Shown here piece by piece: positions 24,617 through 44,651 of a stretch of DNA of 64,000 nucleotides. Within the stretch, counting starts at the first letter, position 1. The number at the start of each line of letters is the position of its first letter. Source of the DNA: Kiloniella laminariae DSM 19542 (GTDB lineage Bacteria; Pseudomonadota; Alphaproteobacteria; Kiloniellales; Kiloniellaceae); the NCBI RefSeq assembly GCF_000374005.1, contig NZ_KB893135.1:1-64000 (forward strand). Direction: 5' to 3'. A model generated the notes under the pieces. That model saw nothing but the letters and a program-made list of their open reading frames with translations. It did no database searches and was not told the DNA's origin. The translations under genes and the position numbers were made by a program.

Positions 24617-24672
24617 TTCGGCTCTCCTAAGATATAACTTGTCCATCTTTATTGCGGGACAGACCTTCCAAC

Positions 24673-24698
24673 AAAAAAGGCCGCGCACTTGCGCAGCC
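24673..24698 (-). terminator. intrinsic terminator upstream of the LYP gene trio
   Basis: Minus strand GGCTGCGC-AAGT-GCGCGGCC (one mismatch in eight) then six Ts. It lies 57 bases upstream of the protein C start with no minus-strand gene nearer than 31.2 kb before it, so an attenuator of a long late transcript is the likely role. Confidence 0.65.
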
Positions 24699-25198
24699 TG
24701 CAAAAAAACTCTGGAACAAAAGACACAATGATCCGGAAAAGAGTTTATCCGCTGGGCAAGAGCAATAAAAAGTATCTCGCGCAGCCAGAGGGAAAATAGA
24801 GAACAGAAATAATACTGCCGTTCTGCTTTCCTATGCGTAGATACAGCTGCAGGAAAACAAACCAGCATCAGTGATTGATCAGAGATTTGTTGCGCCAGCT
24901 CGCCCCTCAAAACTTCATTTCAAAATAAATCGTGATTTCATAATAAAATTATTTTTCACCCTGCCTTTTCATTTAAGGAGTGTTTCTCATTATAAAAAAC
25001 AACCATAAGAATATTTTATGCACTTATTAGGAGATAAACACACATAACCACACCTAATTAAAGTATAAAAAAATAGATTCGAAATAAAAAACCCACTTAA
25101 CCAAGAATTAATTGAATCAATATAAAAATTCATTCTCGTTATTAGCGCTGTCGTTGAATATTCATTTCGTATACAAACCAACAACAAGGAACTGTACA
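24699..25198. other. AT-rich intergenic region before the pilus operon
   Basis: About 500 bases without a credible gene. From 24.9 kb the sequence becomes strikingly AT-rich (many runs of A and T), up to the TTG start of the pilin gene. Such a leader commonly contains promoter elements and binding sites for silencing proteins, and the pilin, chaperone and usher genes read away from it. I could not identify a convincing -35/-10 pair. Minus-strand open frames here have no ribosome site. Confidence 0.5.
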
Positions 25199-25693
25199 TT
25201 GAAAAATTCACTAAAATACATCGCCTATAGTGTTATTACTATGACCGGAGTTGTCGCTTCAACAGGCACCATGGCTGCTGACGGAACCGGAAATGCCTCT
25301 GCCCAGATCCAGCAGGCCATCTCAATCACCGAAGACACCGCCATGGATTTCGGGAACACTGCCGTTGATGCCTCCGGGGGAACTGTAACCATTTCTACGG
25401 CTGGTGCTGTCTCCGGCCCGGCTGGGTACACCTTCTCCGGCTCCCCTGCTGCAGGTGCCTTCACCGCTTCCGGTGATGCCAGTACAGCTGTAACCATCAG
25501 CTTTACCAACGGCTCGCTAACGGGCCCGGGGACAGCCATGACCCTGAACAACTTTACCCATGATGCCGGGGGCACACCAACCACAGACGGTTCTGGGGAT
25601 CTTGCCTTCAACGTTGGCGGGGATCTGGTTGTCAACGCCGCACAGGCGTCTGGTGCCTATGCCGGAACCTATACCGTAACAGTGAACTACTAG
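25199..25693 (+). CDS. DUF4402 family pilin-like exported protein
   Basis: 164 aa from the TTG at 25199, supported by AAGGA eight bases upstream and because it yields a compact signal peptide (KNSLKYIAYSVITMTGVVAS...AADG). The mature protein is Gly/Ala/Ser/Thr-rich beta sequence with ISITEDTAMDFGNTAV at the start, TYTVTVNY at the end and no cysteines, as in DUF4402 proteins secreted by alternate chaperone-usher systems. It should be the polymerising surface subunit. The following hairpin and then chaperone and usher genes complete the operon. No separate tip adhesin gene is present. Confidence 0.75.
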   Translation: MKNSLKYIAYSVITMTGVVASTGTMAADGTGNASAQIQQAISITEDTAMDFGNTAVDASGGTVTISTAGAVSGPAGYTFSGSPAAGAFTASGDASTAVTISFTNGSLTGPGTAMTLNNFTHDAGGTPTTDGSGDLAFNVGGDLVVNAAQASGAYAGTYTVTVNY

Positions 25694-25708
25694 ACCAAAA
25701 CTTCGATG

Positions 25709-25729
25709 GCGGCTCCTTTACGGAGCCGC
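25709..25729 (+). terminator. attenuator hairpin between pilin and chaperone genes
   Basis: GCGGCTCC-TTTAC-GGAGCCGC is a perfect 8-bp stem 15 bases after the pilin stop, followed by a weak GGTTTTA rather than a long T-run. Partial termination or mRNA-end protection here would give more pilin than chaperone/usher, as is usual in fimbrial operons (inference). Confidence 0.6.
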
Positions 25730-25768
25730 TGCCGGTTTTACAGATGCTATCTTCCGGGGGGAAGTAAG

Positions 25769-26671
25769 ATGAAAAACAATTCTGATATCATTGCAGCAGA
25801 TCACAACAACTCGACATCAATTCGAAAAGAGCTCTGCAATAGAGAAAATTTTAAAGTAAAATTGTTTTTTTTACTTTCCCTCTCCTTCTCTTTACTCTCC
25901 TCGCTCATCCCCGCTTCTTCGCCTCAGGCTGCTGGTGGGCTGGTTGTCACCCCGCAACTGGTTGAACTCGACAGTCGCAACCGCAGCACAGTCCTCACCC
26001 TGGCCAATCGCGGTGACAAGCCCGAAACCTACCGTATCTCGGTCATCAACTACCGCATGGATGACCAGGGCAACCTCTTCCCCACCGGCACACCGGCTGC
26101 AGATGAAGGTTTTGCCGAAGGTCTCTTCCGCTATGCCCCGCGCCAGGTCACTTTGGAGCCGGGCAAACCCCAGACCGTGCGCATTCTCTATCGCCGCCCG
26201 GCAACACTGGCCGAGGGGGAATATCGTTCCCACCTCCTGTTTCAGCAGGTTCCTGAAGCTCTGCCCCAGGCCGCAAGTTCCTCAACCCAGGCCGGACTTT
26301 CTGTCGAGATCAAAACCATCTTCGGCATCACCATTCCTGTTCTGGTCCGCCATGGACAGCTGGAATCCCAGGGGCAGCTGACCAATATCCAGCCCTCACA
26401 GCACAACGGCGAAAAAAATATCAGCCTGCGTATCGCCCGATCCGGCAAACAGTCCCTGCGTGGCGACCTTGTTGCTCTGGCTGGTCGCACCGAAGTTGGC
26501 CGCCTGAACAATGTTGCAGTTTATCTTTCAACCCCTTACCGCGACGTAGTCATGCCTCTGCAGCAGGATAAACTCTCTGTTGCCCCGGGTCAGGATATCC
26601 TGATCGAATACCGCCCCCGTGGTGACGACAAGGCCCCGGTCATCGCCACAGGCAAGGCAATAATCAATTAG
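25769..26671 (+). CDS. periplasmic pilus assembly chaperone
   Basis: 300 aa from the ATG at 25769 next to GGGGGGAAG. An unusually long n-region (about 35 residues) precedes the signal hydrophobic core (LFFLLSLSFSLLSSLIPASS). The mature part has the PapD-like first Ig domain: LVVTPQLVELDSRNRSTVLTLANRG, RYAPRQVTLEPGKPQTVRI with the subunit-binding Arg/Lys region, and EGEYRSHLLF; then a second Ig-like domain. It holds DUF4402 subunits in the periplasm until donor-strand exchange at the usher encoded next, 35 bases downstream. Confidence 0.8.
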   Translation: MKNNSDIIAADHNNSTSIRKELCNRENFKVKLFFLLSLSFSLLSSLIPASSPQAAGGLVVTPQLVELDSRNRSTVLTLANRGDKPETYRISVINYRMDDQGNLFPTGTPAADEGFAEGLFRYAPRQVTLEPGKPQTVRILYRRPATLAEGEYRSHLLFQQVPEALPQAASSSTQAGLSVEIKTIFGITIPVLVRHGQLESQGQLTNIQPSQHNGEKNISLRIARSGKQSLRGDLVALAGRTEVGRLNNVAVYLSTPYRDVVMPLQQDKLSVAPGQDILIEYRPRGDDKAPVIATGKAIIN

Positions 26672-26706
26672 GAACAACTGAGAACGCCAGACAGCGGTCT
26701 TTGGCC

Positions 26707-29703: not shown

Positions 29704-29903
29704 ACTTGCTCGGGTAAATCAGGGTTTTCAGACAAACACCTCGCCCCCAACCAAACTTCCTTACCGTTTCTAGCTGTTATAGCCCGCAACGCGACCCCGA
29801 ACAAAACTGTCGAGTTTTTCGCTCTGTCAGGATAACATCGCCAGATCACGGGAAAGGATATACCTCCGTACCAAAGGAAGAGATAAAAGAAAAGAGGAAG
29901 AGC

Positions 29904-30323
29904 ATGTCGGTCAATATACTGTCAGTAGAGCTGCTTTCGGAAATCAACTGGTTTGCCGTTTTGACCGGAACCTTGGCGGCTTATGCTTTTGGCGCGCTCT
30001 GGTACTCACCACTTCTGTTCCTGCGCAGCTGGTCACTTGCCGCGAACCTGAACGACAAGCTCAGCCCCGGACCAGTCGTTTTTGCCAGTGGCTTTCTCCT
30101 AACCCTGCTCGCGGCGACAGCTCTCGCTGTTCTTTTGGGCCCCGCGCCCCAGCTTTGGGACAGCCTTATCCTCTCTTTACTTTGTGGCGGCGCTCTGATC
30201 TGTTCCTCCATCGGTGTAAACTATCTTTTTGCCGGGCGCAGTCTGCGACTCTGGCTCATAGATGGCGGCTTTCAGATCGGGCGTTTTCTATTGATCGGAC
30301 TTGCCCTTGGGCTTGGGCACTGA
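29904..30323 (+). CDS. DUF1761 family membrane protein
   Basis: 139 aa with four membrane helices. The first carries NWFAVLTGTLAAYAFGALWYSPLLF, the recognisable start of DUF1761, followed by three more helices. Function of the family is unknown. GAGGAAG precedes the ATG at suitable spacing. It stands alone 200 bases after the usher on the same strand within the phage accessory region. Base composition resembles the chaperone-usher genes, so it may have arrived with them. Confidence 0.7.
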   Translation: MSVNILSVELLSEINWFAVLTGTLAAYAFGALWYSPLLFLRSWSLAANLNDKLSPGPVVFASGFLLTLLAATALAVLLGPAPQLWDSLILSLLCGGALICSSIGVNYLFAGRSLRLWLIDGGFQIGRFLLIGLALGLGH

Positions 30324-30539
30324 ACAAGCCTGAAACCCGACAAAAGTACCCGGCATCAAGCTTTTTGACCTGCTCAGGATTTCTTAAAAACACTAAACCC
30401 TTGATTGTTGATAAAAATAAATCAAATATATTTACAATTCAATTTCTTGACATATATCAGTTACTAGATCAAAATTTCATACAACCTTAAAGACACACCA
30501 TGTCTTTGGACAAGCGTAAAGCTTACTCCAGATGAGATT

Positions 30540-30953
30540 ATGACCACACCGACCAAACAAATTTCATCTTCTGGCAGTGCCCCCGCTTCCTCACTTGCCT
30601 ATACCCGGGCTTCTTTTCATCTGAAGCCTGCAGAGAAGTTCACAGAGAAATTAATGCCCAGCTCTGACATGAGTTCCAAACCCGCCAATGCAGACGACCA
30701 CAAAATCCGCAAGGCCGGTACAGGCAATGCCAGGGACCAAAGAGACATAGACGCTGATCCAGAAACCTCTTCAAAGAGATTTCTGAGAAAACTTCTTGCC
30801 AGCTTTGCCGGGGCCGTTCTCGGTGCAGCTTTCGCCCTGGCCCTCAGTTGGTTTACAATTGAGTTTATTGGCGGCGATTATGGATTGAGTACCTTGATCC
30901 TTGCCCTGGTCGGCGGCGTTATTGGCTCCGCCACAGGCCGCCTTATCAAATAG
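30540..30953 (+). CDS. small membrane-anchored protein of unknown function
   Basis: 137 aa. The first about 80 residues are polar and probably cytoplasmic (many Ser, Lys, Asp). Two glycine/alanine-rich membrane helices follow (about 86-108 and 115-133), the second ending GGVIGSATGRLIK. No family recognised. Several internal methionines (for example at residues 39 and 44) could be the real start, since no clear ribosome site precedes 30540. It is followed by the hairpin at 30995. Confidence 0.45.
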   Translation: MTTPTKQISSSGSAPASSLAYTRASFHLKPAEKFTEKLMPSSDMSSKPANADDHKIRKAGTGNARDQRDIDADPETSSKRFLRKLLASFAGAVLGAAFALALSWFTIEFIGGDYGLSTLILALVGGVIGSATGRLIK

Positions 30954-30994
30954 CTTTCAGCAACATCTCGCCTGCTGCCTTGATTAACAACCCC

Positions 30995-31038
30995 AAAAAC
31001 CAAAAGCGCCGCTTCGGTCACAGGGACCTCACGGCGCT
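30995..31038 (-). terminator. terminator after LYP-module protein D
   Basis: Minus strand AGCGCCG ... CGGCGCT encloses a second small stem (GGTC/GACC), then TTTTGGTTTTTGG. It lies about 155 bases past the stop of the minus-strand gene at 31195. The T-tract is interrupted, so strength is uncertain. Confidence 0.5.
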
Positions 31039-31194
31039 CAGGTACAATCAATCAGTCGTGGGCGCATCCTAGCCAAATTAGGAAGCTGCGCAACAGTTAA
31101 TTCAGCAGATACCCCTTTTGACACAAGCTTTAACAATTGCTTAATATTACACTGGCCTGAGACACAGCTTCCCCCTGAAACGGCATAAAAGCAT

Positions 31195-32202
31195 TCAGCC
31201 TTTATCAAACCTAGCCCGTCGGCTGTTAAAATTGGACAGTTTTGGCGCCCTGCGTACGCCCGACGGTACAAAAGTAACCCCCACGCCAAACTGCGGCTTG
31301 TCTTCTTCCTTAAGCGCATAAGGATAAAGCGTTTCTGTAGCCCTTTCATACAGCGACTTGGCAGGCTCAAAATTCCCATGATTATCATCCTGCCTCTCCC
31401 GAATCCCGCCACCCAGGCCAGTGCCCAAACCCGAACCCGAACCAAGACCAGAAGGTCCTGGAAGTCCTGCAGCCCCATAACCCGACTTTATCCCGGATAC
31501 CTGTTGGCCATTTCTGAAATTGGAATGAGCCCTGGTCGAGCTGTTGGTTGGTGCTTGGACACCAAATTCGTTCAACGCACGATAGCCGTATCTTGCTAAC
31601 TGGCTCGCGGCTGGCGCCCCCCTGCCCCCGACCAATCCAAGGCCAAGACCAACGGCGTCAAATTGATCAACACTGGCCAGTTCACCTGTTTTGGGATCAA
31701 GGCTCAGGTGTGAATCCACACCGGGCATAAAAAATGACCCAAACCTGTGCATAAAGGCCGCAAACGGGCTCCGGTGTTTTGCGATAGCCCGACGCGAGTT
31801 TTCTGTAATTGTGTCATACCCTCGCGCCTTTCCCATCGCATCAAGCTGCTCGGGACTATAGGCTTCGGCTTCGGTTTTAAAGCCGCCGCCCCTCACATTT
31901 GGAACGCGTGAAATTCCATTGAGGGCCACGTCCTTCTCATCCAGATAATCTTCAAGTGAGGAAAGAACGGCCTGGGTTACCGCTGTTCTCGTTCTTGTTC
32001 TCTGGCTTGGTGGCTTGTTCAGCTCTCTGGTTGCGATACTGCGGTTATGGCTGGAAGTATCAGAACCGCCATTACCAGCATCACTCCGCCCGTTACCTGT
32101 GGCGTCACTTCCGCCCCGACCTGCCCGCCCCTCCAAATCTCTGTTACCTTGATTGTTATGGCTCCCGGTTCCTCTTGCTCCCCGACTTGATCCCTTGGGC
32201 AT
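31195..32202 (-). CDS. LYP-module phage protein D (long)
   Basis: 335 aa from the ATG at 32202 with AAGGAG eight bases upstream. The N-terminus (1-70) is disordered, rich in Gly/Ser/Asn/Arg with repeated GxGGSD. The middle contains HRSPFAAFMHRFGSFFMPGV, LSLDPKTGELASVDQFDAVG and a glycine/alanine segment, aligning with protein C. A glycine-rich linker (GLGSGSGLGTGLGGG) leads to the C-terminal module ERATETLYPYAL, GVGVTFVPSGVRRAPKLS, FNSRRARF. It is the only minus-strand gene among plus-strand cargo, which marks it as original phage content. Role unknown; possibly carried in the virion. Confidence 0.65.
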   Translation of the reverse strand: MPKGSSRGARGTGSHNNQGNRDLEGRAGRGGSDATGNGRSDAGNGGSDTSSHNRSIATRELNKPPSQRTRTRTAVTQAVLSSLEDYLDEKDVALNGISRVPNVRGGGFKTEAEAYSPEQLDAMGKARGYDTITENSRRAIAKHRSPFAAFMHRFGSFFMPGVDSHLSLDPKTGELASVDQFDAVGLGLGLVGGRGAPAASQLARYGYRALNEFGVQAPTNSSTRAHSNFRNGQQVSGIKSGYGAAGLPGPSGLGSGSGLGTGLGGGIRERQDDNHGNFEPAKSLYERATETLYPYALKEEDKPQFGVGVTFVPSGVRRAPKLSNFNSRRARFDKG

Positions 32203-32281
32203 TACGATCACTCCTTATGCTGGATAAATGACTCTTCTCTCCCCCCCTTTCATTCTGGGAGCGAGATTAAGGAGTCTGTTT

Positions 32282-32656
32282 ATGTCTGTATGGAAGATAT
32301 TTGTTTTATTTCCGGCCACTTTTCTGGTCGGCTGCCTGACGCCTCTGGAGCAGGTCGGAACAGTCGTGGGTACCCACTTTGCAATCAAGACCACGGACAA
32401 TATGCAAATCCGCTCTTACGGGAACAGCAGTCCTGACGGCAACAGCGGATCAACCTTTAAAAAAGATAACCGGGCCGCCAGCGCCTCCTCTCCCCTTTCT
32501 CCTCCGGCAACAGCTCCAGAGCTGATCTGCACAAAAAAGGGAGATAAGTGTCAGGCGATCTCTCAAACTGAAATTGGCCAAATGACCCTGGAAAAAGTAT
32601 GTGAAAAGAAGAGCAAAATGGATTGCTGGTATTATAAAGTCGAGCCGGAGACTTGA
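32282..32656 (+). CDS. small lipoprotein
   Basis: 124 aa from the ATG at 32282, with AAGGAG seven bases upstream. VWKIFVLFPATFLVGC is a signal peptide ending in a lipobox (LVGC), so the protein should be lipidated. The remainder has a Ser/Ala/Pro-rich linker and a C-terminal cysteine-containing domain (LICTKKGDKCQAIS, EKVCEKKSKMDCWYY) with four cysteines that could form two disulfides. No family recognised. It diverges from LYP protein D with 79 bases between starts. Confidence 0.65.
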   Translation: MSVWKIFVLFPATFLVGCLTPLEQVGTVVGTHFAIKTTDNMQIRSYGNSSPDGNSGSTFKKDNRAASASSPLSPPATAPELICTKKGDKCQAISQTEIGQMTLEKVCEKKSKMDCWYYKVEPET

Positions 32657-32856
32657 TATACTTATCCCGCATTTTCATATGCGTTTTGCACATTGATCCA
32701 GAAAAAGAATAAATTTTATTTTCCTTGGAAACAAAGTATCAGAAACAGGATATCCGCTCAGGCCAGACTGCCGGCTTCTGTTTTCTTGACAGCTTTGCCC
32801 CTACCCGGCCAACATTCCTCGATCCATATTTTACCGGGCAAGAACAACGGACCCTC

Positions 32857-33144
32857 ATGACCAGCAGACAACAGATATTCGAAGGACTGCTTTATCTTCT
32901 CTTCCCCCACGTCGGAATATCCGTCTGGATCAGTGAACGGATTTCTCCGATGGCAAGTGGTATTCTTGCCGCTGTCTATGCCCTTCTGCTCAGCTACCTG
33001 ATTTTTATCGACCGTCCACTCTTCTCTTATCACTTCTCCAGCTTGTCACTTGTACTGCTTACGCTTTACATCGCCCTGCCCGGCCTGTTTTTCCTCGCCC
33101 GCTCTTTTGATGGTGAAGATGAAGAAGATAATTCCGGATACTGA
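32857..33144 (+). CDS. small membrane protein
   Basis: 95 aa from the ATG at 32857 with three hydrophobic helices (about 8-26, 31-50, 58-80) and a very acidic tail (DGEDEEDNSGY). No family recognised. The frame opens further to 32725 but that extension is polar and has no better start. It is probably in one transcript with the lipoprotein before it and the 318-aa gene after it. Confidence 0.5.
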   Translation: MTSRQQIFEGLLYLLFPHVGISVWISERISPMASGILAAVYALLLSYLIFIDRPLFSYHFSSLSLVLLTLYIALPGLFFLARSFDGEDEEDNSGY

Positions 33145-33294
33145 TCCCCTAGCTGATCCCGGTACTGGCACCGAAAAAAAGATCAAAAAAAACCGGAAAC
33201 TTGGCAACAACCACAAGTCGTGTCACGCTGGTTCTCTCTAGTTCGGTCACTGTTGAAATATCACGCCAAAGTATTTGAACAAGGAGAACACCAG

Positions 33295-34251
33295 ATGAAA
33301 AACCCGCCCCAAAATCCCGTTTTTTCCACAGCTGGAACCAGTCTTTCGTTACAAATGGATGGCACAGAAATCGAACATGACGTCTTCGATTACATGCAAG
33401 CCTACGTCCAGGAAGCCTTTCCTGAAAAACTTACGCCTTTGCCGGGGAACCTGCTGACCCAGCTTTGCCTCTACCTGCAATCCCTGACGGATGCGCCCAC
33501 GCCTCCTTCTCCCGAACTTGTTAATGCCTATCTCTCTTATCTGGAACCACAGGCACAACAGACTGCCCGGCTTGGTGACTTCGCCCATTTCAAAGGCGCC
33601 TTGCAAACAACTCTTGAGAGCCTGTCTGGCCCCTTGTTGTTTGAACCGGCATCGCCCGAATTTATTGAAACCACCATCCAGAAAGTGGTGATCGGACGCG
33701 ATCCCACCGGTATCGGCGACAGCCTCCTTCTTACGCTCAAGGCCCTGGCCAAAAGACTTGAGTTAACCCTGCCATCGAGTTTCAACCTGATCGACAAGGC
33801 TTTTGCCCGGCGCGGGGACTTCCATGTTTGTCAGGTCGACGAGTTTTTGCTGACCAAAAGTTTTCCCCTGAGCGAAATGATCCTCTTTGAACCAGACCGG
33901 ATCAGATCCGCGGAAGTTTGGCGTCTGGTCGACACACCCGACATAACTGACTTTGTCGTACCATCTCTTGCCGGGTTCAGCTTTTTTCTCACAAAAGACG
34001 CGCCCCAGAAATTCCGCTCCGATGGGTCCACAACAGGGATGGCGCACGAGGCACCTGGAAAAGACCCCCTCGGCCCCTTGAGTTCCCACGTGACCGCTGA
34101 TTTTTTCTATCTCAAAGGCAGCCGCAACGTCAAAACCACCCTGACTGTCTTCCCTCTGTATTTACGGTCCAATGCAGATGCGACCAAAGATTATTTCCTC
34201 AATGTTGCCGCAAAGGTTTTTGTCACCCACTATTACGCCATTGTGAAATAA
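33295..34251 (+). CDS. protein of unknown function, cytoplasmic
   Basis: 318 aa from the ATG at 33295 with AAGGAG nine bases upstream. No signal peptide or membrane helix. The first half is helical (DYMQAYVQEAFPEKLTPLPG, LLTQLCLYLQSL), the second half mixed with beta segments (FHVCQVDEFLLTKSFPLSEM, VPSLAGFSFFLTKDAP). I recognise no domain or catalytic motif. Same strand and spacing pattern as the small membrane and lipoprotein genes before it, so it may belong to one cargo operon. Confidence 0.55.
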   Translation: MKNPPQNPVFSTAGTSLSLQMDGTEIEHDVFDYMQAYVQEAFPEKLTPLPGNLLTQLCLYLQSLTDAPTPPSPELVNAYLSYLEPQAQQTARLGDFAHFKGALQTTLESLSGPLLFEPASPEFIETTIQKVVIGRDPTGIGDSLLLTLKALAKRLELTLPSSFNLIDKAFARRGDFHVCQVDEFLLTKSFPLSEMILFEPDRIRSAEVWRLVDTPDITDFVVPSLAGFSFFLTKDAPQKFRSDGSTTGMAHEAPGKDPLGPLSSHVTADFFYLKGSRNVKTTLTVFPLYLRSNADATKDYFLNVAAKVFVTHYYAIVK

Positions 34252-34420
34252 CGCCCCCGGCAAGAGGACAAAAAGCAGGGGACAACCGGAAGATAGCGCC
34301 CCAGGTTTTTTCTGCCTTGCCGTTATCACGCCCCTATCGTGGTCGGCAGAGGCTCAAGCCTTGTCTTGCCAGCCGTACAAACTCCCCCTAAACTCGCTAC
34401 AACTATTGGGGGTTATTTAC

Positions 34421-35074
34421 ATGAAATCTGCTCTGAAAGCATTCCTGCTGTCAGCATCTGTCCTGCTGCCAGCCCAGGTCCTTGCCGAAACCGGCACGTT
34501 GGAACAGCAAACCGCGATCTGGCTGGAACACATCCGCGCGCCTTCCCCGGAAGCAGCAGCGTTCTATCAAAAGCAGAGCGAACTCTACCGCACAAGTTTT
34601 ACCGCCTATCCCGGTGCCGTCCTTGGCCCGCTCCAGGAACTGGCTGCCCATTTCTCTGCCCCCGGCGAAGCCATCCCCTATGGCGACTGCATGATCGAAG
34701 GCCAGCAAAAAAAGGCCTTTCTCAACACCCCTGCCGGACAGGAAGAATTCAAACAGATGCTGGCCGTCGCACCGCCGCAGCTTCACAGTCTGGTCAAAAA
34801 AATGGCCGAAAAATCAACTTCGATCACCCTCGGGGAACAGGTCTCGGCCTGTCGCTGTGCCAATGAACACACCTGGAACAGCGTCCTGACGGCCGACCAC
34901 CGCGCGGTCTACAACAAAATGGTCCAGGGCATCAGCCTCGATCAGTCCGAACGCAAAACCCTGACCACAGAAGCCAGCAGCTTTACCCCCCTCAGCAGCG
35001 GTTACGACCCGATGGAATGCGGCCTGAAAGCCATTGGCCTCTATGATGAATATCTGAAAATTCAGGGATATTGA
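34421..35074 (+). CDS. exported protein of unknown function
   Basis: 217 aa from the ATG at 34421. MKSALKAFLLSASVLLPAQVLAETG is a clean signal peptide with cleavage after LA. The mature protein is helical, with four cysteines: one in GDCMIEGQQ, two in VSACRCANEH and one in PMECGLKAIG. The CxC and the repeated aromatic/charged helices suggest disulfide-stabilised periplasmic structure. No family recognised. Confidence 0.6.
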   Translation: MKSALKAFLLSASVLLPAQVLAETGTLEQQTAIWLEHIRAPSPEAAAFYQKQSELYRTSFTAYPGAVLGPLQELAAHFSAPGEAIPYGDCMIEGQQKKAFLNTPAGQEEFKQMLAVAPPQLHSLVKKMAEKSTSITLGEQVSACRCANEHTWNSVLTADHRAVYNKMVQGISLDQSERKTLTTEASSFTPLSSGYDPMECGLKAIGLYDEYLKIQGY

Positions 35075-35140
35075 GACGAATAAAACAGATCTCATATTAC
35101 ACCAGCGCTGAATTATAGAAATCACTAGTGAGAAATGTAG

Positions 35141-35476
35141 ATGAGAACAAAAAATATCATATTTTTTTGTGGAACAATATTTTCAACAATAATTCTGGCA
35201 TCAGTATCATATGCCCTGACGTTTGGAGATTCTAACTTTGGGTATAATAATTATCCCTCTCACTCCTGTAACAAGCCACGTACTAAACCACACAAGCCCT
35301 ATCGGATCACTCAGCAGATAGAAATAGATCAGTACAATCAGCAAGTTAGTCGCTACAACCAAGAAATAGAAGAATATTTCAACTGTATAGATAGTTATGT
35401 CGAAGCCGCCAAGAACGATATGGATCGTATCAGAGATAAAGCCAATGAAGCCATATCAGAAGCCAGAAGGCTGTGA
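35141..35476 (+). CDS. small exported coiled-coil protein
   Basis: 111 aa with a signal peptide (IIFFCGTIFSTIILASVSYA) followed by a Pro/Asn/Tyr-rich stretch (NYPSHSCNKPRTKPHKPYR) and a long helix (QYNQQVSRYNQEIEEYFNCI... through AKNDMDRIRDKANEAISEAR). Two cysteines flank the helix start. The DNA is more AT-rich than neighbours, suggesting separate acquisition. It converges on the terminase gene with 26 bases between stops. Confidence 0.55.
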   Translation: MRTKNIIFFCGTIFSTIILASVSYALTFGDSNFGYNNYPSHSCNKPRTKPHKPYRITQQIEIDQYNQQVSRYNQEIEEYFNCIDSYVEAAKNDMDRIRDKANEAISEARRL

Positions 35477-35502: not shown

Positions 35503-36960
35503 CTACCCCCCCGGTTCGTAATCCATAATTGCCGTGTCAAAATCGCCGGGTTCGTCGCCCCATTTGACAACCTCTTCGGCGAAGGTCAGGGCCAGGGCGT
35601 CGGCGACATCGGGTGAGTGCAGGCCGCGCTTTTTCATGTCGGATTTTTTCTCCAGCTGCAGGCGGTTTTTGGCGTCAAAGCCGTATTCAATCCCGGTCAG
35701 GTCGCTTTCAAGTTCGCTGTCATCCGCCGGAATATCCGCCGTCTTGAGCCAGTCGCGCAGGCGGCTCCACATTTCCGCGCGTTTGTTGAGAAAGCTCTTG
35801 TGATCCTGCGCGGTTGATCCGGCGTTGACGTCGATCACCGCATGGCCAAGCTGGTGCAGGCGATCAACCACGCCGCCGCCAACCCCGACGCCATCGACCA
35901 GCACGCCGTCAGGTTTGTAGCGTCCGATCGCCTCGATCACAAAGCTGGCAAGGGCCATGGTATCAACCCGGTATTTGCGAATTTCCAGCAGCTTGCGCCC
36001 CTGACGGATAAGGATCACTGACTGGTCATCGCCAAATCTTGCCACATCCACGCCGATCACTATCGGCTGTTCCGGCTGCGGTGGCAGCTCACGCGCCCTG
36101 GCTTCAGCCACCAATTGCCCGGAAATAAACTGGGTCGAGCCCGCGCGGGGGAAGACACCACGCACCCGCACCCGGACAAAATCGCTGTCCTCGCCATAGT
36201 CTTCGACCCACTGCTGCATCAGATCGGCGTTGGTGCCTTCAACCGCGCGACTGTCGATCTGGCGGCTGTGCCAGCGGTGGCGCAGGCGGTGAAAACACTC
36301 AAAAAACCGCCCGGAATTGCGGGTTGGGTTGCCAAAGACAAAGCGCATCGGCTCCCCATCGGTCAGGCCCCCGTCCGACACTTCCCAGATTTTATCCGGC
36401 ACCGCCGAAGCCTCATCAAACAGATAAAAAGGCGTCGAGTTGGCGGCGTGCAACCCGGCAAAGCTTTCCGAGTTTTCCTCGCGGCAGGTCTGCGCGTCAC
36501 AACGCCAGCTCTCGGCGTGGCTCTTGTGGCTGAGCGACATGTTGCCCTTGCTCGCATTGTACTGAAACCAGTGTCCGGTCAGACAGCGGCGGTGCCACTT
36601 TCCCAGCTCGGCCCAGGTCTTGGTCCGTAGCTGATCCCCGGTGTTGGAAGTCACGACCCCCTTGGCAAAGGGCCGGGTCGAGAGAATAAACAGGATCAGC
36701 CATGCCGACATCGCCGACTTGCCAATGCCGTGGCCTGACGCCGTGGCGATATCGGTCGGGGCGACAGGATGCACGCCGTCAAAGCCTCTGCTGCGGATCT
36801 GTGCGCCCAGATGGTCCAGATAGTCACGCTGCCAGGCACGCGGCCCGGCAAAGTCCGCCAGATCGCCCCTGCCCCAGTCAAACGCCCAGAGCACAAAGCC
36901 GAGCGGATCGGCATAAAAGCGCGCGCAATCCTCGGCAATGTCCAGATCAACCCTGGCCAT
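35503..36960 (-). CDS. terminase large subunit
   Basis: 485 aa. The ATPase domain has Walker A SGHGIGKS (75-82), Walker B FYLFDEAS and a coupling motif region (FVFGNPTRNSG). The RNase H-like nuclease domain has VIGVDVARFGDDQS, GVLVDGVGVGGG and HSPDVADALALTFA, supplying the acidic metal ligands. It packages DNA into the procapsid through the portal. All motifs look intact. It follows the small subunit by 62 bases, with the accessory region beyond. Confidence 0.92.
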   Translation of the reverse strand: MARVDLDIAEDCARFYADPLGFVLWAFDWGRGDLADFAGPRAWQRDYLDHLGAQIRSRGFDGVHPVAPTDIATASGHGIGKSAMSAWLILFILSTRPFAKGVVTSNTGDQLRTKTWAELGKWHRRCLTGHWFQYNASKGNMSLSHKSHAESWRCDAQTCREENSESFAGLHAANSTPFYLFDEASAVPDKIWEVSDGGLTDGEPMRFVFGNPTRNSGRFFECFHRLRHRWHSRQIDSRAVEGTNADLMQQWVEDYGEDSDFVRVRVRGVFPRAGSTQFISGQLVAEARARELPPQPEQPIVIGVDVARFGDDQSVILIRQGRKLLEIRKYRVDTMALASFVIEAIGRYKPDGVLVDGVGVGGGVVDRLHQLGHAVIDVNAGSTAQDHKSFLNKRAEMWSRLRDWLKTADIPADDSELESDLTGIEYGFDAKNRLQLEKKSDMKKRGLHSPDVADALALTFAEEVVKWGDEPGDFDTAIMDYEPGG

Positions 36961-37022
36961 AGTTCAATCCTGTCCTGCTAAAGAATAAGGGATGTTTTCT
37001 ACAATAAAGCCCGCAAAGCAGG

Positions 37023-37655
37023 TCAGTTGGCCTGTTCGGGTTGGGTGGCCTGTTCGGGTTGCCCGGGCTGCACCCCGCCAGCCTGAACCTCGCCAACCTG
37101 AACCCCACCGGTCTGAACCCGTTTGCGTCCACGGGCGAGGCGTTCCATCAGAGCACTTTCGATCCCGACATCCACCCGTTCCTTGAAGGCCTGAACCGAG
37201 ACATGTTTGCCGATCAGCTCCAGCGCCTTGCCCGCGCCCGCATACTGGAACTTGTATTCCCCGGCCGCATCCGGTACCGGGCTGCGCTGCATACAGCGTT
37301 CGAACAGCTCAACCGCCCCGCGCAGCACGTAATCCGCATCGATTTTCAAGCGCGCGGACCGCTCGGCCAGCGCCTGATCCACCGCTGTCCGTACCGCTGG
37401 CATGCCCAGCACCCGGCTGCCGCTCTGCTGCGCGCCTGCTGGCGAATATCCCGCCCGCACCGCCGCCTGTGTGGCATTGAGATCAACCAGATATTCCTCG
37501 ACAAAACGGCTTTGCCGCGCCGACAGTTTGGCACTGGACTGTTCATGAAACTTTGCCTTGATAGCTCTCTGGGTCGTTCTCTGGGACTTTCCAGACGCGT
37601 TGCCCGGATCTGACGCCCCAGCCTTCCCGGCTTCCGGTTTTGACTTCTGCTGCAC
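37023..37655 (-). CDS. terminase small subunit
   Basis: 210 aa if started at the GTG at 37655, which has GGAGG just upstream. A 279-residue frame exists to 37862, but its extra N-terminus is unlike the family. The Terminase_2 domain is clear: KLSARQSRFVEEYLVDLNATQAAVRAGY (helix-turn-helix), then SGSRVLGMPAVRTAVDQALAERS and a helical oligomerisation region. The C-terminus is a repetitive tail rich in Gly/Val/Gln/Pro (two 18-bp and three 15-bp DNA repeats). It recognises viral DNA and recruits the large subunit. Confidence 0.85.
   Translation of the reverse strand: MQQKSKPEAGKAGASDPGNASGKSQRTTQRAIKAKFHEQSSAKLSARQSRFVEEYLVDLNATQAAVRAGYSPAGAQQSGSRVLGMPAVRTAVDQALAERSARLKIDADYVLRGAVELFERCMQRSPVPDAAGEYKFQYAGAGKALELIGKHVSVQAFKERVDVGIESALMERLARGRKRVQTGGVQVGEVQAGGVQPGQPEQATQPEQAN
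37028..37121. repeat. tandem repeats at the 3' end of the small terminase gene
   Basis: Two copies of an 18-bp unit (37028-37045, 37046-37063), then three of a related-looking 15-bp unit (37077-37091, 37092-37106, 37107-37121). All are in frame and encode the PEQATQ and VQxGE-like tail of the protein. Confidence 0.8.
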
Positions 37656-37975
37656 AACCCCTCCAAAACCGTTCAAGATCAATAGACTGAACAGAATTTT
37701 AAGGCAGCCAGAGCCGTCCCTCAACTCATCATAAGCTTGAAACACAAACCGGGATGGCCCGGAAGGGAAGCTTTCCCTTTCGGAGAAAACATATCGCTGG
37801 TAACACCAGCCCCGCCTGACCAGCCCCAATACAACACCAGTCCCGGCACAGTCCCGCCCCAAAACCCGGCGGGTTAAAAAAAATCTCCATTCGGGACTTA
37901 TGCTTTTGCTGGCTTTGGGTGCTGGCTTTGGGCTAAAAGCGGATAACGGTGTGTTTGAGAGTTAGGGATTGCGGA
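37656..37975. other. intergenic region between terminase and topoisomerase genes
   Basis: About 320 bases between divergent genes. No convincing gene: the open minus-strand frame is an extension of the small terminase frame without family similarity. Runs of A (GTTAAAAAAAATC near 37880) and Pro/Gly-coding-like low complexity are present. Promoters for both directions should lie here, but no clear boxes were identified. Confidence 0.5.
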
Positions 37976-40900
37976 TTGTCGACCATAGTTATTACGGAAA
38001 AGACTTCTCAGAAGCGGGATGTCCAGGCGGCGGTTGGCAATGACTACGGGCGCATTCTCCCGGCAGAGGGACACCTGCTCAGCCTGCAGGAACCGCAACA
38101 GGTTGAAAGCAGCTGGGGCCGCTGGTCCTTTGACCTGCTCAAGCCCGATGACTTTTACCCGACCTGTCCCGCGCCCGATGCCTCGCCCTCGGCCAAGTCA
38201 AAGCTGCAGGCCATTGCCGATGCGCTCAAGACCGCCACCCGCGTCATTATCGCGACCGACTGCGACCGCGAAGGTCAGTTGATCGGCGAGGAAATCCTGC
38301 GCCACTACAAATTTTCCGGCAAGGTCGAACGGGCCATGTTCACCGCGCAGGATGAAAAGACCCTGCGCCAGGCCTTTGCCAATCTGGAACCGAACGAAAA
38401 GTATTACAATCTGGGTCAGGCCGCGGTGGTGCGTCAGCAGGCCGATCAGGTCTACAACCTGTCGCTGACCCGCGCGGCGACGGTCGCATTGAAACAGCCG
38501 GGACAGTACGGTGCCATTGGTATTGGCCGGGTCAAGACCCCGACCATGGCGATTGTCTGCATGCGCGAGCTGGAAATCCGTGACTTTACGCCCCAGGATT
38601 ATTACCACCTCGTCGCCACTGCCAATGTAAAGCTCCAGCTGGGAACCGACGCCGCCCCACAGGAACAAGACGGCACGCTCGATCTGCGCCACGCCCCGAA
38701 AAACAAGATCCTCGACCCGGATCAGGCCGAGGCCTTGCGCGCTGCGGTCGAGGGTTATCAGGGGCCGCTGAAGGCCGAAAAGAAGATCAAGTCGACCAAG
38801 CCGCCGCGCCTGCTTGATCTGCCGGAACTGCAAAAGATCTGCGCGCGACGCTGGGGCTGGACCGCCGACAAGACCCTGAACATTGCCCAGGAACTGTACG
38901 ATGGCGAAGGCAAGAAGATCCAGACCTACCCCCGCGCTGAATCGCGCTATCTGGCGGAAAACCAGATCGAGGACATTGCTGAGATTATCCAGGGTCTGAC
39001 GGGTCTGCCGCAGTACCAGAACATCGACCTGAGCAAGCCGGAAGTGCGCAAGGGCAAAAGCGGCCATTTCTCGGATGCGGGGCTCAAGGGGGTCTCGCAC
39101 CACGCGATTGTGCCGAACAAGAACACCATGGACCGCATCACCACGATCTATCCGCGCCTGAGCGAAGACGAGCAGCGCATGTTTGATCTGGTCGCCAGTT
39201 CCTATCTCGCCATTCTGCTGCCCGATTATGTCTATGAGTCCACCACCGTGGCCATGGATGTGCCGGTCACCCTGCCCAACCCCGACGGCAGCCCCGCAAA
39301 GGAAAAGATCCTCGACTTCAAGGTCACCGGGAACATTCCGAAAGAACAGGGCTGGAAAGCGGTCTACACCGATGTGATGGAGAAAAAGGAAGAGGACGCC
39401 AGTGAAGAGGGGCGTGAGTTACCTCCAGTGCAGGACGGCGACCTTGCCACGCTCAATCCCGTGACCACCGACAGTAAAAAGACCAAGGCCCCGCCACGTT
39501 ATAACGAGGGTACGCTGATCGATGCCATGCAGAACGCCTGGCGCTTTGTCGAAGACAAGGACCTGAAAGAACGGCTCAAGGAAGCCAAGGGCATCGGCAC
39601 CCCGGCGACCCGCGCCTCGGTCATTACCGGGCTCAAGGTCCAGAACTTTCTGGCCCAGAGCGGCAAGCACATCATCCCGACCGAGGCTGGCCTGACGCTC
39701 TACAGCACGCTCAAGACCGCCGCGCCTGAACTGGTGGATCCCGGCGTGACCGCGATCTGGGAAATGCATCTGGATGACGTGCTCGAAGGCAAGCAGTCGG
39801 CGCGACAGGTCTGGGACGACATCGGCAGGGATACTGCGCGTCTGATCAACATCATCAAGACCAACGCCGCCTCTGCCCCCAAGATCAACACCGGGGTTGC
39901 CATGCCCAAGGGGGCCGGGCGGGGCAAGCCGACCGACAAGATGAAAGAAACCGCCAAATCCATCGCGGCGGCGCGCGGCCTGAAACTGCCCAAGGGCTAC
40001 ACTTCAGACTTTGAAACCTGCCGCGACTTTCTCGATGAACATCTCGGCGGCAAGGGCAAGGTTGAAAGCCCCGAAAAACAACGTGAACGCCAGATCGCCA
40101 GCATGGAAAAGCAACTGGCGGGCGGCATGATCAAGGGGCTGGGGGCCAAGGCCGCCAAACAGCTGGCCGAAACCTTTGGCCCGGAAGCGCTGGATATCAT
40201 CCTCAACCAGCCGGACAAGCTCGAGGCACAGGCCAAGGACCTGGGCCTGACCAAGGCCAAGCTCACCCTGCTCAGCGATTGGGCCAGTGAACGCCGGAAC
40301 TCTGCCCTCCTTGCCAGCTTCCTGCATAACCACGGGGTCGAGCCCGTCCGCGCCCTGCGCCTGCTTCAGGCCTGGCCCGGCAAGACCGCCGCCGAGATCA
40401 TCGATCTGCTGCGTGCCGATCCCTATTGTTTCCTGCGGGTGACCCGTGGCCTGCCCTTTGCCATGGCCGACACCCTGGCCCACCGTCTGGGGCTGGAGCC
40501 CAATTCCCCCCTGCGCGCCCGTGCCGCCCTTTATCACGCGCTGGCCCAGGCGGCGGATTATCGCGGCAGGAATGCCCTGCTGGCCCAGCTGGAAAAACGC
40601 CTCGACCTGCCGCTGGATCTGCTGGTTTCTGCGCTAGAGGCCGAACGGGCGGACAAACAGATCCATCTGGTCAAGGACCGCAAGCGCTACGAAGAAAAAC
40701 CTCCCCAGAATCAAACAGGCTATGAAGTTGAAGAACTGATCCTGCACGACCACTGGCAGGCCGAACAGAAAATCAGCAAGCGGCTCAAGGCCCTGCGCGA
40801 CGGCAGCGCGCTCTGGGCCGGGATCGAGGCTGAAAAGGCGGTGGACTGGGTGCGGGACAAGGGCAAGATCCCCCTGACCATCAACCAGAAACAGACCGTC

Positions 40901-42451
40901 ATCGGCCTGCTCGCCAAGCCCGACACGGGCAAGATCCGCCTGATCAATGGCAGCCCGAACACAGGCAAGTTGACCGTCACCCGCGCCTTCCTGCGCATCC
41001 TCGCGGCCAAGGGCTTTTCCATTGCCCTGACCTCGGCCAGTGCAGCCGAAGCCCGTGATCTCGCCAAAGACCCGGCGCTCAAGGACTACAGCGCCACCTC
41101 GCTGGTCAAGCTGCTGGACTACACCGCCAAATCGGGCAATTTCAAACACAACAGCCGCAAGCCGCTGGATTGCCAGCTGCTGGTGATTACCTCTGCCGCG
41201 TTGCTTGATCGCGCCCTGCTGCTGGCGGCGCTCGAAGCCCTGCCCGAAGACGCCGGATTGCTGCTGATCGATGACATGACCCGCCTGCCCGCCGCCGGAT
41301 CGGGCCGGGTACTCGAAGAACTGACCCGACAGGCCGATGTGCCCTGGCTGGCGCTGTGGGATCTGCCGCCAGAACTGGAACACAACCGCCTGTCCGATAA
41401 CCAGCTGCGCCTGTTCCACGGCAGACCGCCCAACCTGAAGCGCGAAAAACCTGCTGCAGAAATGCAGGCAAAAATGGCCGAAGACAAACACCCCCATCCC
41501 TCTCGTATCAAGGATGGCAAGACCGTAACCCTCAAGACAGGCCCCAACGCGCAGGGCAGTTTTTATCTGGTCGAGACCAGTGACCCCGCCGACAGCCTGC
41601 GCAAGATCACCGAAATCATCAGCAACCGCCTGCCCAAATCCTTCAAGCTGGACCCGCGCAAGGACCTGCAGGTCATCTGTCTTTCCGCCTTGGGCGAACT
41701 CGGCCCGCGCAAGCTGAACCTGCGCCTGCAACAGCTGCTCAACCCGCCCGAAGACGGCCTCTTTGTCGATCGTTTTGGCTGGCGCTTTCGCATCGGTGAC
41801 AAGGTTACCTTGAGCGAGAACGACCCCGAACGCGACCTGCTCGCGGGCGACTGTGGCATCATCAAGGACATCACCCGCGATGACCTGCCGCCCCTGGCCG
41901 GGCCAGTCCCGGCGACAGCTTCCGGGCCACGATCAACGACTGTATCTGAAGATATATCTGCCCCAGCAACCCTGACAGCATCTTCCCCCGATGCCGCGCT
42001 CCCTGCAGCCCCCACAGCCTCTGGCACAGCCACGAGTACGGCCTCTGCCATGACCTCGAACATCGCAGCGCCACAGACAACAGAACCCGCAGCAGTGCAA
42101 GATCAGGATAGCAGACTGGATACAGGCTCCAGGCTAGACACAGTTCCCAAGCTGGATACAGGCCGCATCACCATCGACTTCCAGGGCAAAAGCCACGACC
42201 TCGCCTTTGACGAGCTCGACCGCCTCTCCCTCGCCTATGCCCTGCATGCCCCGCGCAGCCGCGCCCAGCAAAGCACCGCCGCCCTGATCATCGGCCCCTG
42301 TTCATCTGGAAATACATCTGGCGCGCCATCAGACAGCCCGCCCGCCGCACTCCCCAGCGACGAAGAAAAGAAAACCCTCTACAGCGCCCTGACCCACCCC
42401 CACGACCTCGCCATCATCCTCGCCCCCAAATCCGCCGTCGATTGGGTGTGA
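37976..42451 (+). CDS. type IA topoisomerase fused to a RecD2-like (degenerate) helicase
   Basis: About 1491 aa from the TTG at 37976 (AGGG eight bases upstream); the GTG at 37949 adds nine residues and sets the numbering here. Topoisomerase III-like part (11-650): Toprim VITEK (Glu17) and ATDCDREGQ (Asp104, Asp106, Glu108), GRVKTPTMA, and catalytic Tyr327 in TYPRAESRYL. RecD2-like part (about 710-1500): helix-hairpin-helix/N-terminal region (FGPEALDIIL, RGLPFAMADTLAHRLGL), Walker A GSPNTGKL (1001-1008), then LLVITSAALLD where RecD2 has a DEAS Walker B, IDDMTRLPAAGSG, FRIGDKVTLSEND, and LSLAYALHAPRSRAQQS where the HKSQG motif VI belongs. The helicase fold is kept but catalytic residues are lost. 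Topoisomerase is probably active; the helicase half may be a DNA-binding platform. Confidence 0.85.
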   Translation: MSTIVITEKTSQKRDVQAAVGNDYGRILPAEGHLLSLQEPQQVESSWGRWSFDLLKPDDFYPTCPAPDASPSAKSKLQAIADALKTATRVIIATDCDREGQLIGEEILRHYKFSGKVERAMFTAQDEKTLRQAFANLEPNEKYYNLGQAAVVRQQADQVYNLSLTRAATVALKQPGQYGAIGIGRVKTPTMAIVCMRELEIRDFTPQDYYHLVATANVKLQLGTDAAPQEQDGTLDLRHAPKNKILDPDQAEALRAAVEGYQGPLKAEKKIKSTKPPRLLDLPELQKICARRWGWTADKTLNIAQELYDGEGKKIQTYPRAESRYLAENQIEDIAEIIQGLTGLPQYQNIDLSKPEVRKGKSGHFSDAGLKGVSHHAIVPNKNTMDRITTIYPRLSEDEQRMFDLVASSYLAILLPDYVYESTTVAMDVPVTLPNPDGSPAKEKILDFKVTGNIPKEQGWKAVYTDVMEKKEEDASEEGRELPPVQDGDLATLNPVTTDSKKTKAPPRYNEGTLIDAMQNAWRFVEDKDLKERLKEAKGIGTPATRASVITGLKVQNFLAQSGKHIIPTEAGLTLYSTLKTAAPELVDPGVTAIWEMHLDDVLEGKQSARQVWDDIGRDTARLINIIKTNAASAPKINTGVAMPKGAGRGKPTDKMKETAKSIAAARGLKLPKGYTSDFETCRDFLDEHLGGKGKVESPEKQRERQIASMEKQLAGGMIKGLGAKAAKQLAETFGPEALDIILNQPDKLEAQAKDLGLTKAKLTLLSDWASERRNSALLASFLHNHGVEPVRALRLLQAWPGKTAAEIIDLLRADPYCFLRVTRGLPFAMADTLAHRLGLEPNSPLRARAALYHALAQAADYRGRNALLAQLEKRLDLPLDLLVSALEAERADKQIHLVKDRKRYEEKPPQNQTGYEVEELILHDHWQAEQKISKRLKALRDGSALWAGIEAEKAVDWVRDKGKIPLTINQKQTVIGLLAKPDTGKIRLINGSPNTGKLTVTRAFLRILAAKGFSIALTSASAAEARDLAKDPALKDYSATSLVKLLDYTAKSGNFKHNSRKPLDCQLLVITSAALLDRALLLAALEALPEDAGLLLIDDMTRLPAAGSGRVLEELTRQADVPWLALWDLPPELEHNRLSDNQLRLFHGRPPNLKREKPAAEMQAKMAEDKHPHPSRIKDGKTVTLKTGPNAQGSFYLVETSDPADSLRKITEIISNRLPKSFKLDPRKDLQVICLSALGELGPRKLNLRLQQLLNPPEDGLFVDRFGWRFRIGDKVTLSENDPERDLLAGDCGIIKDITRDDLPPLAGPVPATASGPRSTTVSEDISAPATLTASSPDAALPAAPTASGTATSTASAMTSNIAAPQTTEPAAVQDQDSRLDTGSRLDTVPKLDTGRITIDFQGKSHDLAFDELDRLSLAYALHAPRSRAQQSTAALIIGPCSSGNTSGAPSDSPPAALPSDEEKKTLYSALTHPHDLAIILAPKSAVDWV
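42110..42163. repeat. 18-bp in-frame tandem repeat in the fusion topoisomerase
   Basis: Three copies (42110-42127, 42128-42145, 42146-42163) encode SRLDTG, SRLDTV, PKLDTG. They sit at the end of an Ala/Ser/Thr/Pro-rich linker inserted between the FRIGDKV segment and the final RecD2-like domain. Confidence 0.85.
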
Positions 42452-42677: not shown

Positions 42678-44651
42678 CTATATGTCGTCACCATAGTGAG
42701 ACTGCTGATATTTATGAGCTTCTTCTGGATCATTAAGCATTTGGAAGAGTTCCTGCAGGCAAATAACCTCAATATAAGAGTTCGCTGAGCAAAGCCGATG
42801 TGTTAGGCCGTGGTGTGATCGACGGTGAGTTAGTTCTGAATCAAGATACGAAATCACTGAATATTCTTTGTCGAAATCTTTGCCCATCTCCCAAAACACT
42901 GCAAGATCGACATCGTTCTCGTGTTTGTCTCCACCTTCAAACTCTCTGATCAATCCATCTAAACAGAATTTATACTCAAGAACCTTCGGTTGAGTCGTGT
43001 ATGTCTTTGTAAGCTGTTCTCCGAACACTCCGAGCGGATTATTTTTTTGGCAGAATTCATATGCCGACAATGGATCTTCCGCGGAGAAGCGGAAAACGCC
43101 GTCGTATTGGGATGATTGTGAAGTTGCGAGTAGCTTTAATCCACGAATAACCCCACCTGCGATTAATTGATTGAATAAAACGATTACGTCTTGCTCGCTT
43201 TGTGGGACACACATAACAGAAATCTTTTTCGTAGGCAGAAAGAAGCCATCATTTTTAAGCACTAGGGGGTGATCGGCCTCATATTGTTCTTGATATTTTA
43301 GCCATTCATGTACCTTAAGCTCTTTATCGATATCAGTATGTGCACCGCTATCCGATTTCAAGATATCCTCTCTTCTCGCGCTTAGCTGTTTAACGACCCC
43401 CGCAGCAATTTTTTCGGCCAGTTCTTTAAGTTCAGGTTGAAACCCCTTCCGACCCAAGTCAGGTTCAGCGCCCTCAAAGTGAACGATCACATGGCTTTGG
43501 TTTTGATGGCCCATACTCTTGGACAATGGAATGGTAATAAGCTCACCTTGCGGCATGCTGTTGCTTGCAATTTGGAGGCCACCTTTGATGATTCTCAATC
43601 CCTGCCTGAGTTTAGCCTTCTTGTCATTTAATTGGTCCCAAATCTCGGTCGAATATACAAAGTAACCGTAGGCAGTAACATTGTGAGTTTTAGCCAGTTC
43701 AATTTCATCATCTGATAGTCGAGCTAACGGCAAAACTTGGTCGAGCGAATAAACTTCATAAATACCATTCGATTTTCGAAATTTGTCTATTGCTCTCGCA
43801 GGGTCTTTACCTTCGTTCAAAGCTTTTTGCTGAATCTCAACAATCTTCCGAAGTTGTTGGCTTGCATGGACCTCTAAGTGGGGAAACTTATATTTTGCTT
43901 CCTGCTCTTCAAGGCTTGTAACTTTGCCATCCTTGTCCATGACCCTCAAATCAAATTGGATATTTGAGGCAGAACAACTTGGTAATTTAATCGAACCAAG
44001 AGGTGTCTTAATAAGCAGCAAATACAGCCACTGTTCTGCTGTTTTTGCTTGATACCACCCAAGATTTTTAGGGCGAACATGCTTGCCTGAGAACGCAATT
44101 TTGAAGCTGGTTCCTTGGTCAAGCGCATCGAACGCGTTGCTCTTAGTCTTTGCTGGCTCAATAAGCGGACGCGAAACAGTCCCCTCGTGATCCTCAATCC
44201 ACTCGCGCCCTCTGCGCATCGTGCCTTGATAAGAGAAGAGGCGATTCTTCGTCCGTATAGTTAGGTCATTAAACCCATATGCAATGTACGTGACACCAAC
44301 GCCCTTGTTGCCCCGTGTCTCGCCTCCCGACTTGAACGAAATACTCGGTGCTAGGAACGCTTTAAATTCTGCTTCCTCAAATCCACATCCATTATCCAAA
44401 ACTTCGATAGAATTCTCATTCAGATCAACGATGATCGTGACCTTAGGGTAGATCTTCGTATCTGCCTCGCACCTCTTCTCAACTGCGTCCATAGCATTTT
44501 GGATCAACTCGGAAAGGGGGTCATAATTACTTACATATGACTTCAAAATATTCTTGATTTCGCGTTTTTTCGCAGAAGCAAGGACATTTGCATCTGTTAA
44601 ACCAGCGGCGTCGAGTGGGTCCCAGGTCACAGATTGATTGGTTGACGTCAT
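42678..44651 (-). CDS. GHKL (HSP90/MutL/MORC-like) ATPase, possible defence protein
   Basis: 657 aa. The N-terminal GHKL ATPase is complete: SELIQNAMDAVEKR (N-box, Asn52), DNGCG (86-90) and GNKGVGVTYIAYG (114-126), followed by a transducer-like region (QGTSFKIAFSGKH). The C-terminal about 400 residues are alpha/beta with no family I recognise (for example RQGLRIIKGGLQIASNSM, ISVMCVPQSEQDVIVLFNQL). Composition is more AT-rich than flanking genes, suggesting transfer. Stand-alone GHKL proteins of this build occur in restriction or phage-defence loci, but there is no partner nuclease or methylase here. The start at 44651 is followed upstream by an inverted repeat. Confidence 0.7.
   Translation of the reverse strand: MTSTNQSVTWDPLDAAGLTDANVLASAKKREIKNILKSYVSNYDPLSELIQNAMDAVEKRCEADTKIYPKVTIIVDLNENSIEVLDNGCGFEEAEFKAFLAPSISFKSGGETRGNKGVGVTYIAYGFNDLTIRTKNRLFSYQGTMRRGREWIEDHEGTVSRPLIEPAKTKSNAFDALDQGTSFKIAFSGKHVRPKNLGWYQAKTAEQWLYLLLIKTPLGSIKLPSCSASNIQFDLRVMDKDGKVTSLEEQEAKYKFPHLEVHASQQLRKIVEIQQKALNEGKDPARAIDKFRKSNGIYEVYSLDQVLPLARLSDDEIELAKTHNVTAYGYFVYSTEIWDQLNDKKAKLRQGLRIIKGGLQIASNSMPQGELITIPLSKSMGHQNQSHVIVHFEGAEPDLGRKGFQPELKELAEKIAAGVVKQLSARREDILKSDSGAHTDIDKELKVHEWLKYQEQYEADHPLVLKNDGFFLPTKKISVMCVPQSEQDVIVLFNQLIAGGVIRGLKLLATSQSSQYDGVFRFSAEDPLSAYEFCQKNNPLGVFGEQLTKTYTTQPKVLEYKFCLDGLIREFEGGDKHENDVDLAVFWEMGKDFDKEYSVISYLDSELTHRRSHHGLTHRLCSANSYIEVICLQELFQMLNDPEEAHKYQQSHYGDDI

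Follow-up and report, generated by a model that had tools for sequence, protein, structure and literature searches.

Helicase-topoisomerase pairs such as BLM-Top3, RecQ-TopB and reverse gyrase rely on ATP-driven unwinding. In reverse gyrase the helicase-like domain is N-terminal, belongs to SF2 and uses ATP (PMC10233626). Helicase folds can also be kept after activity is lost. The inactivated SF1 helicase domains of AddB and RecC retain the fold without the motifs, do not unwind DNA, and bind Chi at the former tracking site (PMC4824097). The domains at the C-terminus of type IA enzymes bind either nucleic acids or protein partners (PMC10969213). DpdF is a protein of Dpd defence; its variant model in PADLOC (PDLC02865, 1499 positions) has a type IA topoisomerase followed by a helicase, and its second half is of the RecQ type (SF2), with E. 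coli RecQ matching positions 748–1081.

The protein described here combines a type IA topoisomerase with a RecD2-type half. Like reverse gyrase, it has a helicase fold on the same polypeptide as a type IA topoisomerase, but the helicase half is C-terminal, of the SF1B type and, by its motifs, dead; the reverse gyrase model TIGR01054 matches the topoisomerase part only. The order of the two activities is that of the DpdF variant, whose model the topoisomerase half matches at E 4e-58, whereas the second halves differ: the best match to PDLC02865 is confined to positions 55–680, and the RecD2 half has no match at the RecQ region. Helicases thus were apparently attached behind a type IA topoisomerase at least twice, and these were different helicases. 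The fold and the domain order HhH, 1A, 2A, SH3 are shared with RecD2 (SF1B, TIGR01448; D. radiodurans structures 3e1s/3gp8), but the fusion does not have the N-terminal region of the RecD2 family and all its catalytic motifs are degenerate. AddB and RecC offer the same combination of a preserved SF1 fold and lost motifs; in contrast to the fusion they are UvrD-like, are part of a helicase-nuclease complex, and have a known Chi-binding function.

In the window (the whole analysed stretch of 64,000 nucleotides), the open reading frame noted by the first-pass annotation at 37949–42451 of the forward strand is present. Searches against Pfam, NCBIfam and PDB show that it encodes a topoisomerase III-type enzyme (residues ~12–640) continued in frame by the RecD2-type half (residues ~700–1500). 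The frame stands, but its proposed start at 37949 probably does not. In the other 12 fusion loci compared, the start-codon site corresponding to 37976 is TTG in Kiloniella and GTG in other genera. The conserved start (S/T)TIIITEKT follows immediately on this codon, so the GTG at 37949 is probably nine codons too early. Residue numbers are nevertheless counted from this GTG. Neither Rfam nor tRNA features were found in the 64-kb window.

Features of the fusion gene and the adjoining terminase genes in the window (residues counted from the GTG at 37949).
Feature	Coordinates	Strand	Comment
Terminase large subunit	35503..36960	-	Divergent neighbour of the fusion in all eight Kiloniella-type loci
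Terminase small subunit	37023..37862	-	Divergent neighbour of the fusion in all eight Kiloniella-type loci
Fusion gene	37976..42451	+	Probable 1491-aa protein from TTG 37976; GTG 37949 would give 1500 aa
Toprim domain	37982..38311	+	Residues 12-121; E17 and D104/D106/E108 present
Topoisomerase IA core	38399..39811	+	Residues 151-621; active-site Tyr327 in TYPRAE at 38927-38929
HhH region and HHH_RecD2 domain	40046..40567	+	Residues 700-873; best-retained portion of the RecD2 half
RecA domain 1A remnant	40874..41458	+	Residues 976-1170
Degenerate Walker A, GSPNTGKL	40949..40972	+	Residues 1001-1008
Degenerate motif II/Walker B, LLVITSAALLD	41177..41209	+	Residues 1077-1087; T and S in place of D and E
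Degenerate motif III, LLLIDDMTRLPAAGSG	41285..41332	+	Residues 1113-1128
RecD2 SH3 domain	41714..41881	+	Residues 1256-1311; retained, strongly constrained
RecA domain 2A, C-terminal part	42179..42448	+	Residues 1411-1500; degenerate motif VI APRSRAQQ at 42248-42271

The Pfam domains of the window protein are Toprim (E 6e-13), Topoisom_bac (8e-86), HHH_RecD2 (2e-16) and AAA_30 (4e-9); SH3_13 falls just below its cut-off (3e-10). The scores against the full-length models are low: 403.6 bits for TIGR01056 (topB; NCBI cut-off 515.75) and 259.5 bits for TIGR01448 (RecD2; cut-off 500), the latter match beginning at model position 56. By these scores, the topoisomerase half is a divergent topoisomerase III-like subfamily and not TopB proper. 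The full set of topoisomerase III-type catalytic residues, reported earlier for this protein, was found and is invariant in 12 aligned fusions (E17, D104/D106/E108, Y327, R329).

The motifs of the RecD2 half were compared in an alignment of 13 fusions and 22 standalone alphaproteobacterial RecD2 proteins. All 22 standalone proteins have intact Walker A, DExS, GDxxQLPS, FRQ/HRQ, HKSQG/HKAQG and TRGK/TRAR-type motifs, whereas the full SF1 motif set is absent from all 13 fusions. The window protein has GSPNTGKL for GGPGxGKT, LLVITSA for LLVVDETS, APRSRAQQ for IHKSQGSE and LTHPHD for VTRGKR, and the first-pass readings of Walker A, Walker B, motif VI and the final motif were therefore correct. Fusions keep from zero to five of 14 key catalytic positions (two in the window protein), and the broken motifs differ from genus to genus. 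Where RecD2 is at least 90% invariant, the fusions keep the residue in 26% of cases within motifs and in 56% outside them (Mann-Whitney p 1.4e-6, the positions not being independent). A distant intact RecD of K. litopenaei, taken as a control, shows the opposite pattern (77% inside, 47% outside), so the loss of motifs is not mere divergence. With four linker positions set aside, retention is highest in HHH_RecD2 (70%) and is also high in SH3 (63%) and in the early part of 2A (62%), and the RecD2 half also contains near-invariant residues specific to the fusions.

Judged by these motifs, the RecD2 half is enzymatically dead as a helicase, and this state is fixed across the fusion family. The earlier suggestion of a probably dead helicase is thus borne out, and the degeneration of the ATPase motifs is not a one-off event of this genome. 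A fusion with an intact Walker B, which would have spoken against this conclusion, does not occur among the 13. Fusions with intact motifs were likewise not found in 58 relatives, 385 genomes of the class, 398 genomes of the phylum, plasmids and phages, nor in the orders of two fusion carriers or in genome_contigs; since the phylum-draw genomes listed were mostly Alphaproteobacteria, this absence is weakly tested outside that class. ATP binding, unlike hydrolysis, may persist in several Kiloniella fusions, which still have the GK of the P-loop and the Asp of Walker B. These residues, and the joining of a helicase fold to a type IA topoisomerase in a single chain, would suit an ATP-driven, reverse-gyrase-like machine in which the RecD2 half works via unusual motifs. 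We give this explanation hardly any credence, as none of the 13 fusions has either the Walker B Glu or the motif IV Arg, and that of G223 retains not one of the 14 key residues.

The dead half is nevertheless maintained. Reading frames are open to the end in all 13 fusions. In Nei-Gojobori estimates, which carry no standard errors, the comparison of the window species with K. laminariae (dS 0.34–0.37) gave dN/dS of 0.07 for the topoisomerase half and 0.24 for the RecD2 half; five other Kiloniella pairs gave 0.02–0.03 and 0.08–0.13, respectively. For the SH3 region, dN/dS is 0.04–0.09 where dS is unsaturated. Structure prediction, proposed as a check in the first-pass annotation, showed that the RecD2 fold (HhH, 1A, 2A, SH3) is kept: the core of an AF2 model based on 12 sequences mostly has pLDDT of 80–95, and its best structural match is D. 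radiodurans RecD2 (3e1s; Z 32.7, rmsd 3.9, 483 residues). The open frames, the dN/dS values and the confident fold indicate that the half is kept and is not decaying freely. It is under purifying selection, although it evolves several times faster than the topoisomerase half, with identity between genera down to ~36%. Such fast divergence would fit relaxed constraint too, and the RecD2 half could be a decaying passenger that came under relaxed selection after the fusion and has no function of its own. The heterogeneity of the divergence, the different broken motifs in each genus and a dN/dS several times that of the topoisomerase half agree with this possibility. We consider it unlikely, given full-length frames in every fusion, dN/dS well under 1 even in the closest pair, the constrained SH3 region and the confident fold.

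The 13 fusions were found in Kiloniella, a Sneathiella-type genus, Aestuariispira and Terasakiella. All eight near-complete Kiloniella-type genomes have the fusion, and the window itself comes from a genome of this type; in the Sneathiella-type order it is whole in three of 25 genomes (including strain 46_93_T64) and fragmentary in one more. In a tree of topoisomerase halves, a branch with 97/97 support separates the fusions from unfused alphaproteobacterial relatives; one unfused row in this tree sits on a long branch, and the position of the root is uncertain. A single origin of the fusion is the simplest reading of this grouping. The sister group consists of topoisomerases of the plasmid or element type, for instance from plasmids of Azospirillum thermophilum, Bradyrhizobium and Roseomonas, which belong to the same family (mostly 45–55% identity over residues 10–698) but are unfused, 650–860 aa long, and have other tails (DUF5710 in G136). 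They reside on plasmids as well as chromosomes, in some cases next to integrases. No case can be made that the fusion took the place of a lost chromosomal RecD2, as the family relatives G009 and G011 show no RecD2 either. About 1.8 kb downstream of the gene in K. laminariae (G002) lies a fragment (L079:5780-5875) that matches the fusion's last 32 residues at 81% identity, perhaps a partial duplication.

Type IA topoisomerases were also found near helicases without being fused to them. In the alphaproteobacterial genome G136, successive genes on the same strand encode an integrase, a topoisomerase of the fusion's family and an intact RecD2. A 1663-aa fusion considered for this locus was rejected, as topoisomerase and RecD2 are encoded by two adjacent genes with stops between them. 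No second pair of this kind was observed among 14 genomes of that order, or at the other alphaproteobacterial topoisomerase loci with flanks, several of which are on short contigs. Three Paenibacillaceae plasmids (L113, L114, L115) contain a conserved array of recD-like, lepB and topoisomerase IA genes followed by a type IV coupling-protein gene. The motifs of these recD-like genes are intact, one of the three failing a simple DExS pattern, and the array is possibly a conjugation-linked topoisomerase-RecD2 pair. The few cases of a type IA topoisomerase beside an intact RecD2 make cooperation of both activities before the fusion plausible. In K. litopenaei the distant intact RecD-like helicase adjoins a type IIG restriction-methyltransferase gene (L108:3490-8629), a possible defence pair.

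We consider it rather likely that the RecD2 half acts as an ATP-free pseudo-helicase, namely a DNA-holding or structure-sensing arm for strand passage. The observations pointing in this direction are the intact topoisomerase site, the family-wide loss of motifs, the best retention in HhH and SH3, selection, the RecD2 fold, the single clade, type IA topoisomerases near intact recD2 elsewhere, the AddB/RecC precedent, and the C-terminal domains of type IA enzymes; the residual GK P-loop and Walker B Asp of some fusions weaken it, as does the fast divergence of the RecD2 half. In the proposed scenario, a topoisomerase III gene of the plasmid or integrative-element type would have become joined to recD2 in an ancestor. 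The half derived from recD2 presumably lost ATP hydrolysis before the present genera split and kept its fold. The topoisomerase half would cut and pass single strands without ATP, as topoisomerase III enzymes do, and the other half would form a large, ATP-independent, predicted DNA-binding arm comprising the HhH, the SH3 and the old tracking groove. This arm may hold or recognise a single-stranded or branched region and present it to the gate, standing in for the tails of other type IA enzymes. The holding of single strands by the helicase half, suggested in the first-pass annotation, is thus plausible.

A dead helicase fold could instead be a protein-protein scaffold that no longer touches DNA and docks the topoisomerase on a partner, such as AddAB, SSB, or a replication or recombination factor. 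Retention of the fold with loss of the catalytic surfaces would be expected for a scaffold, as would the near-invariant fusion-specific residues, and C-terminal domains of other type IA enzymes do bind protein partners (PMC10969213). On the other hand, the modules retained best are those that might be expected to contact DNA. HhH and SH3 in RecD2 are of nucleic-acid-binding types, and we regard the scaffold as rather doubtful. For the DNA-binding arm, we tentatively suggest a more specific version, which would be another kind of topoisomerase-helicase machine: a RecC-like pseudo-helicase would sense a particular DNA structure or sequence independently of ATP and guide the type IA topoisomerase. 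Such a machine might have arisen from a mobile-element topoisomerase-RecD2 partnership and might since have been adopted by the chromosomes of marine Alphaproteobacteria for decatenation or recombination.

Both halves belong to known families, and the new part would be their combination with a helicase that is dead family-wide. No description of such a fusion was found in the open-access literature searched; RecD and RecQ domains go unmentioned in a 2024 review of type IA topoisomerases. A conserved pair with a permanently dead helicase would separate the placing of DNA from its unwinding, and allows one to ask, in a natural setting, how a helicase fold aids strand passage when no ATP is used. 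Few inactivated helicases are known to have been retained for some other role, and this one, derived from RecD2, would join them.

The terminase genes that the first-pass annotation had noticed beside the fusion do adjoin it, as part of a podovirus-like structural cluster on the reverse strand (2512–24910 and 35503–37862). The cluster includes a GP7-type capsid (PF20911), a head-tail connector (PF12236), tail tubular proteins A and B, a T7-type fibre and the terminases; no integrase or replication genes were noticed in it. It is co-linear in K. litopenaei and occupies the same place in six Kiloniella genomes. The capsid is 94–100% identical over the seven genomes having it (dN/dS 0.003–0.03), and its dS is similar to that of the neighbouring host-type gene. 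Near-identity of the capsid, low dN/dS and constant position across the genus are the behaviour of a domesticated element, possibly a domesticated phage or a gene-transfer-agent-like element. A structural locus that is genus-wide and selected deserves attention in its own right.

The same neighbourhood had led to the proposal that the fusion is a phage or mobile-element replication factor. It could serve a phage, or this cluster, in replication or DNA processing, considering that it is divergent from the terminase pair in 8/8 Kiloniella-type loci, that the selected cluster is close (capsid and fusion 12–23 kb apart in the six genomes with both on one contig), and that two IMG/VR provirus calls end at the fusion gene. 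The terminase neighbours do not make it a phage gene, since the fusion lives without them in other genera: no phage genes were found beside it at the loci examined from the Sneathiella-type genus, Aestuariispira and Terasakiella, and no capsid homologue in five fusion-carrying genomes outside Kiloniella. None of 50,697 phage records covers 80% of the fusion, and unfused relatives are on plasmids and chromosomes. The proposal is not supported by this comparison, and a phage role is very improbable.

Downstream of the fusion, at 42678–44651 of the reverse strand, a gene absent from the other Kiloniella loci compared encodes a protein of 657 aa whose N-terminus is of the sacsin/HSP90 ATPase type and which gives weak matches to PADLOC TmtA. 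The structural cluster is itself interrupted between portal and terminase (21936–35476) by unrelated genes, which include a CAAX-protease-like gene (21936–22931) and several forward-strand open reading frames without a family match.
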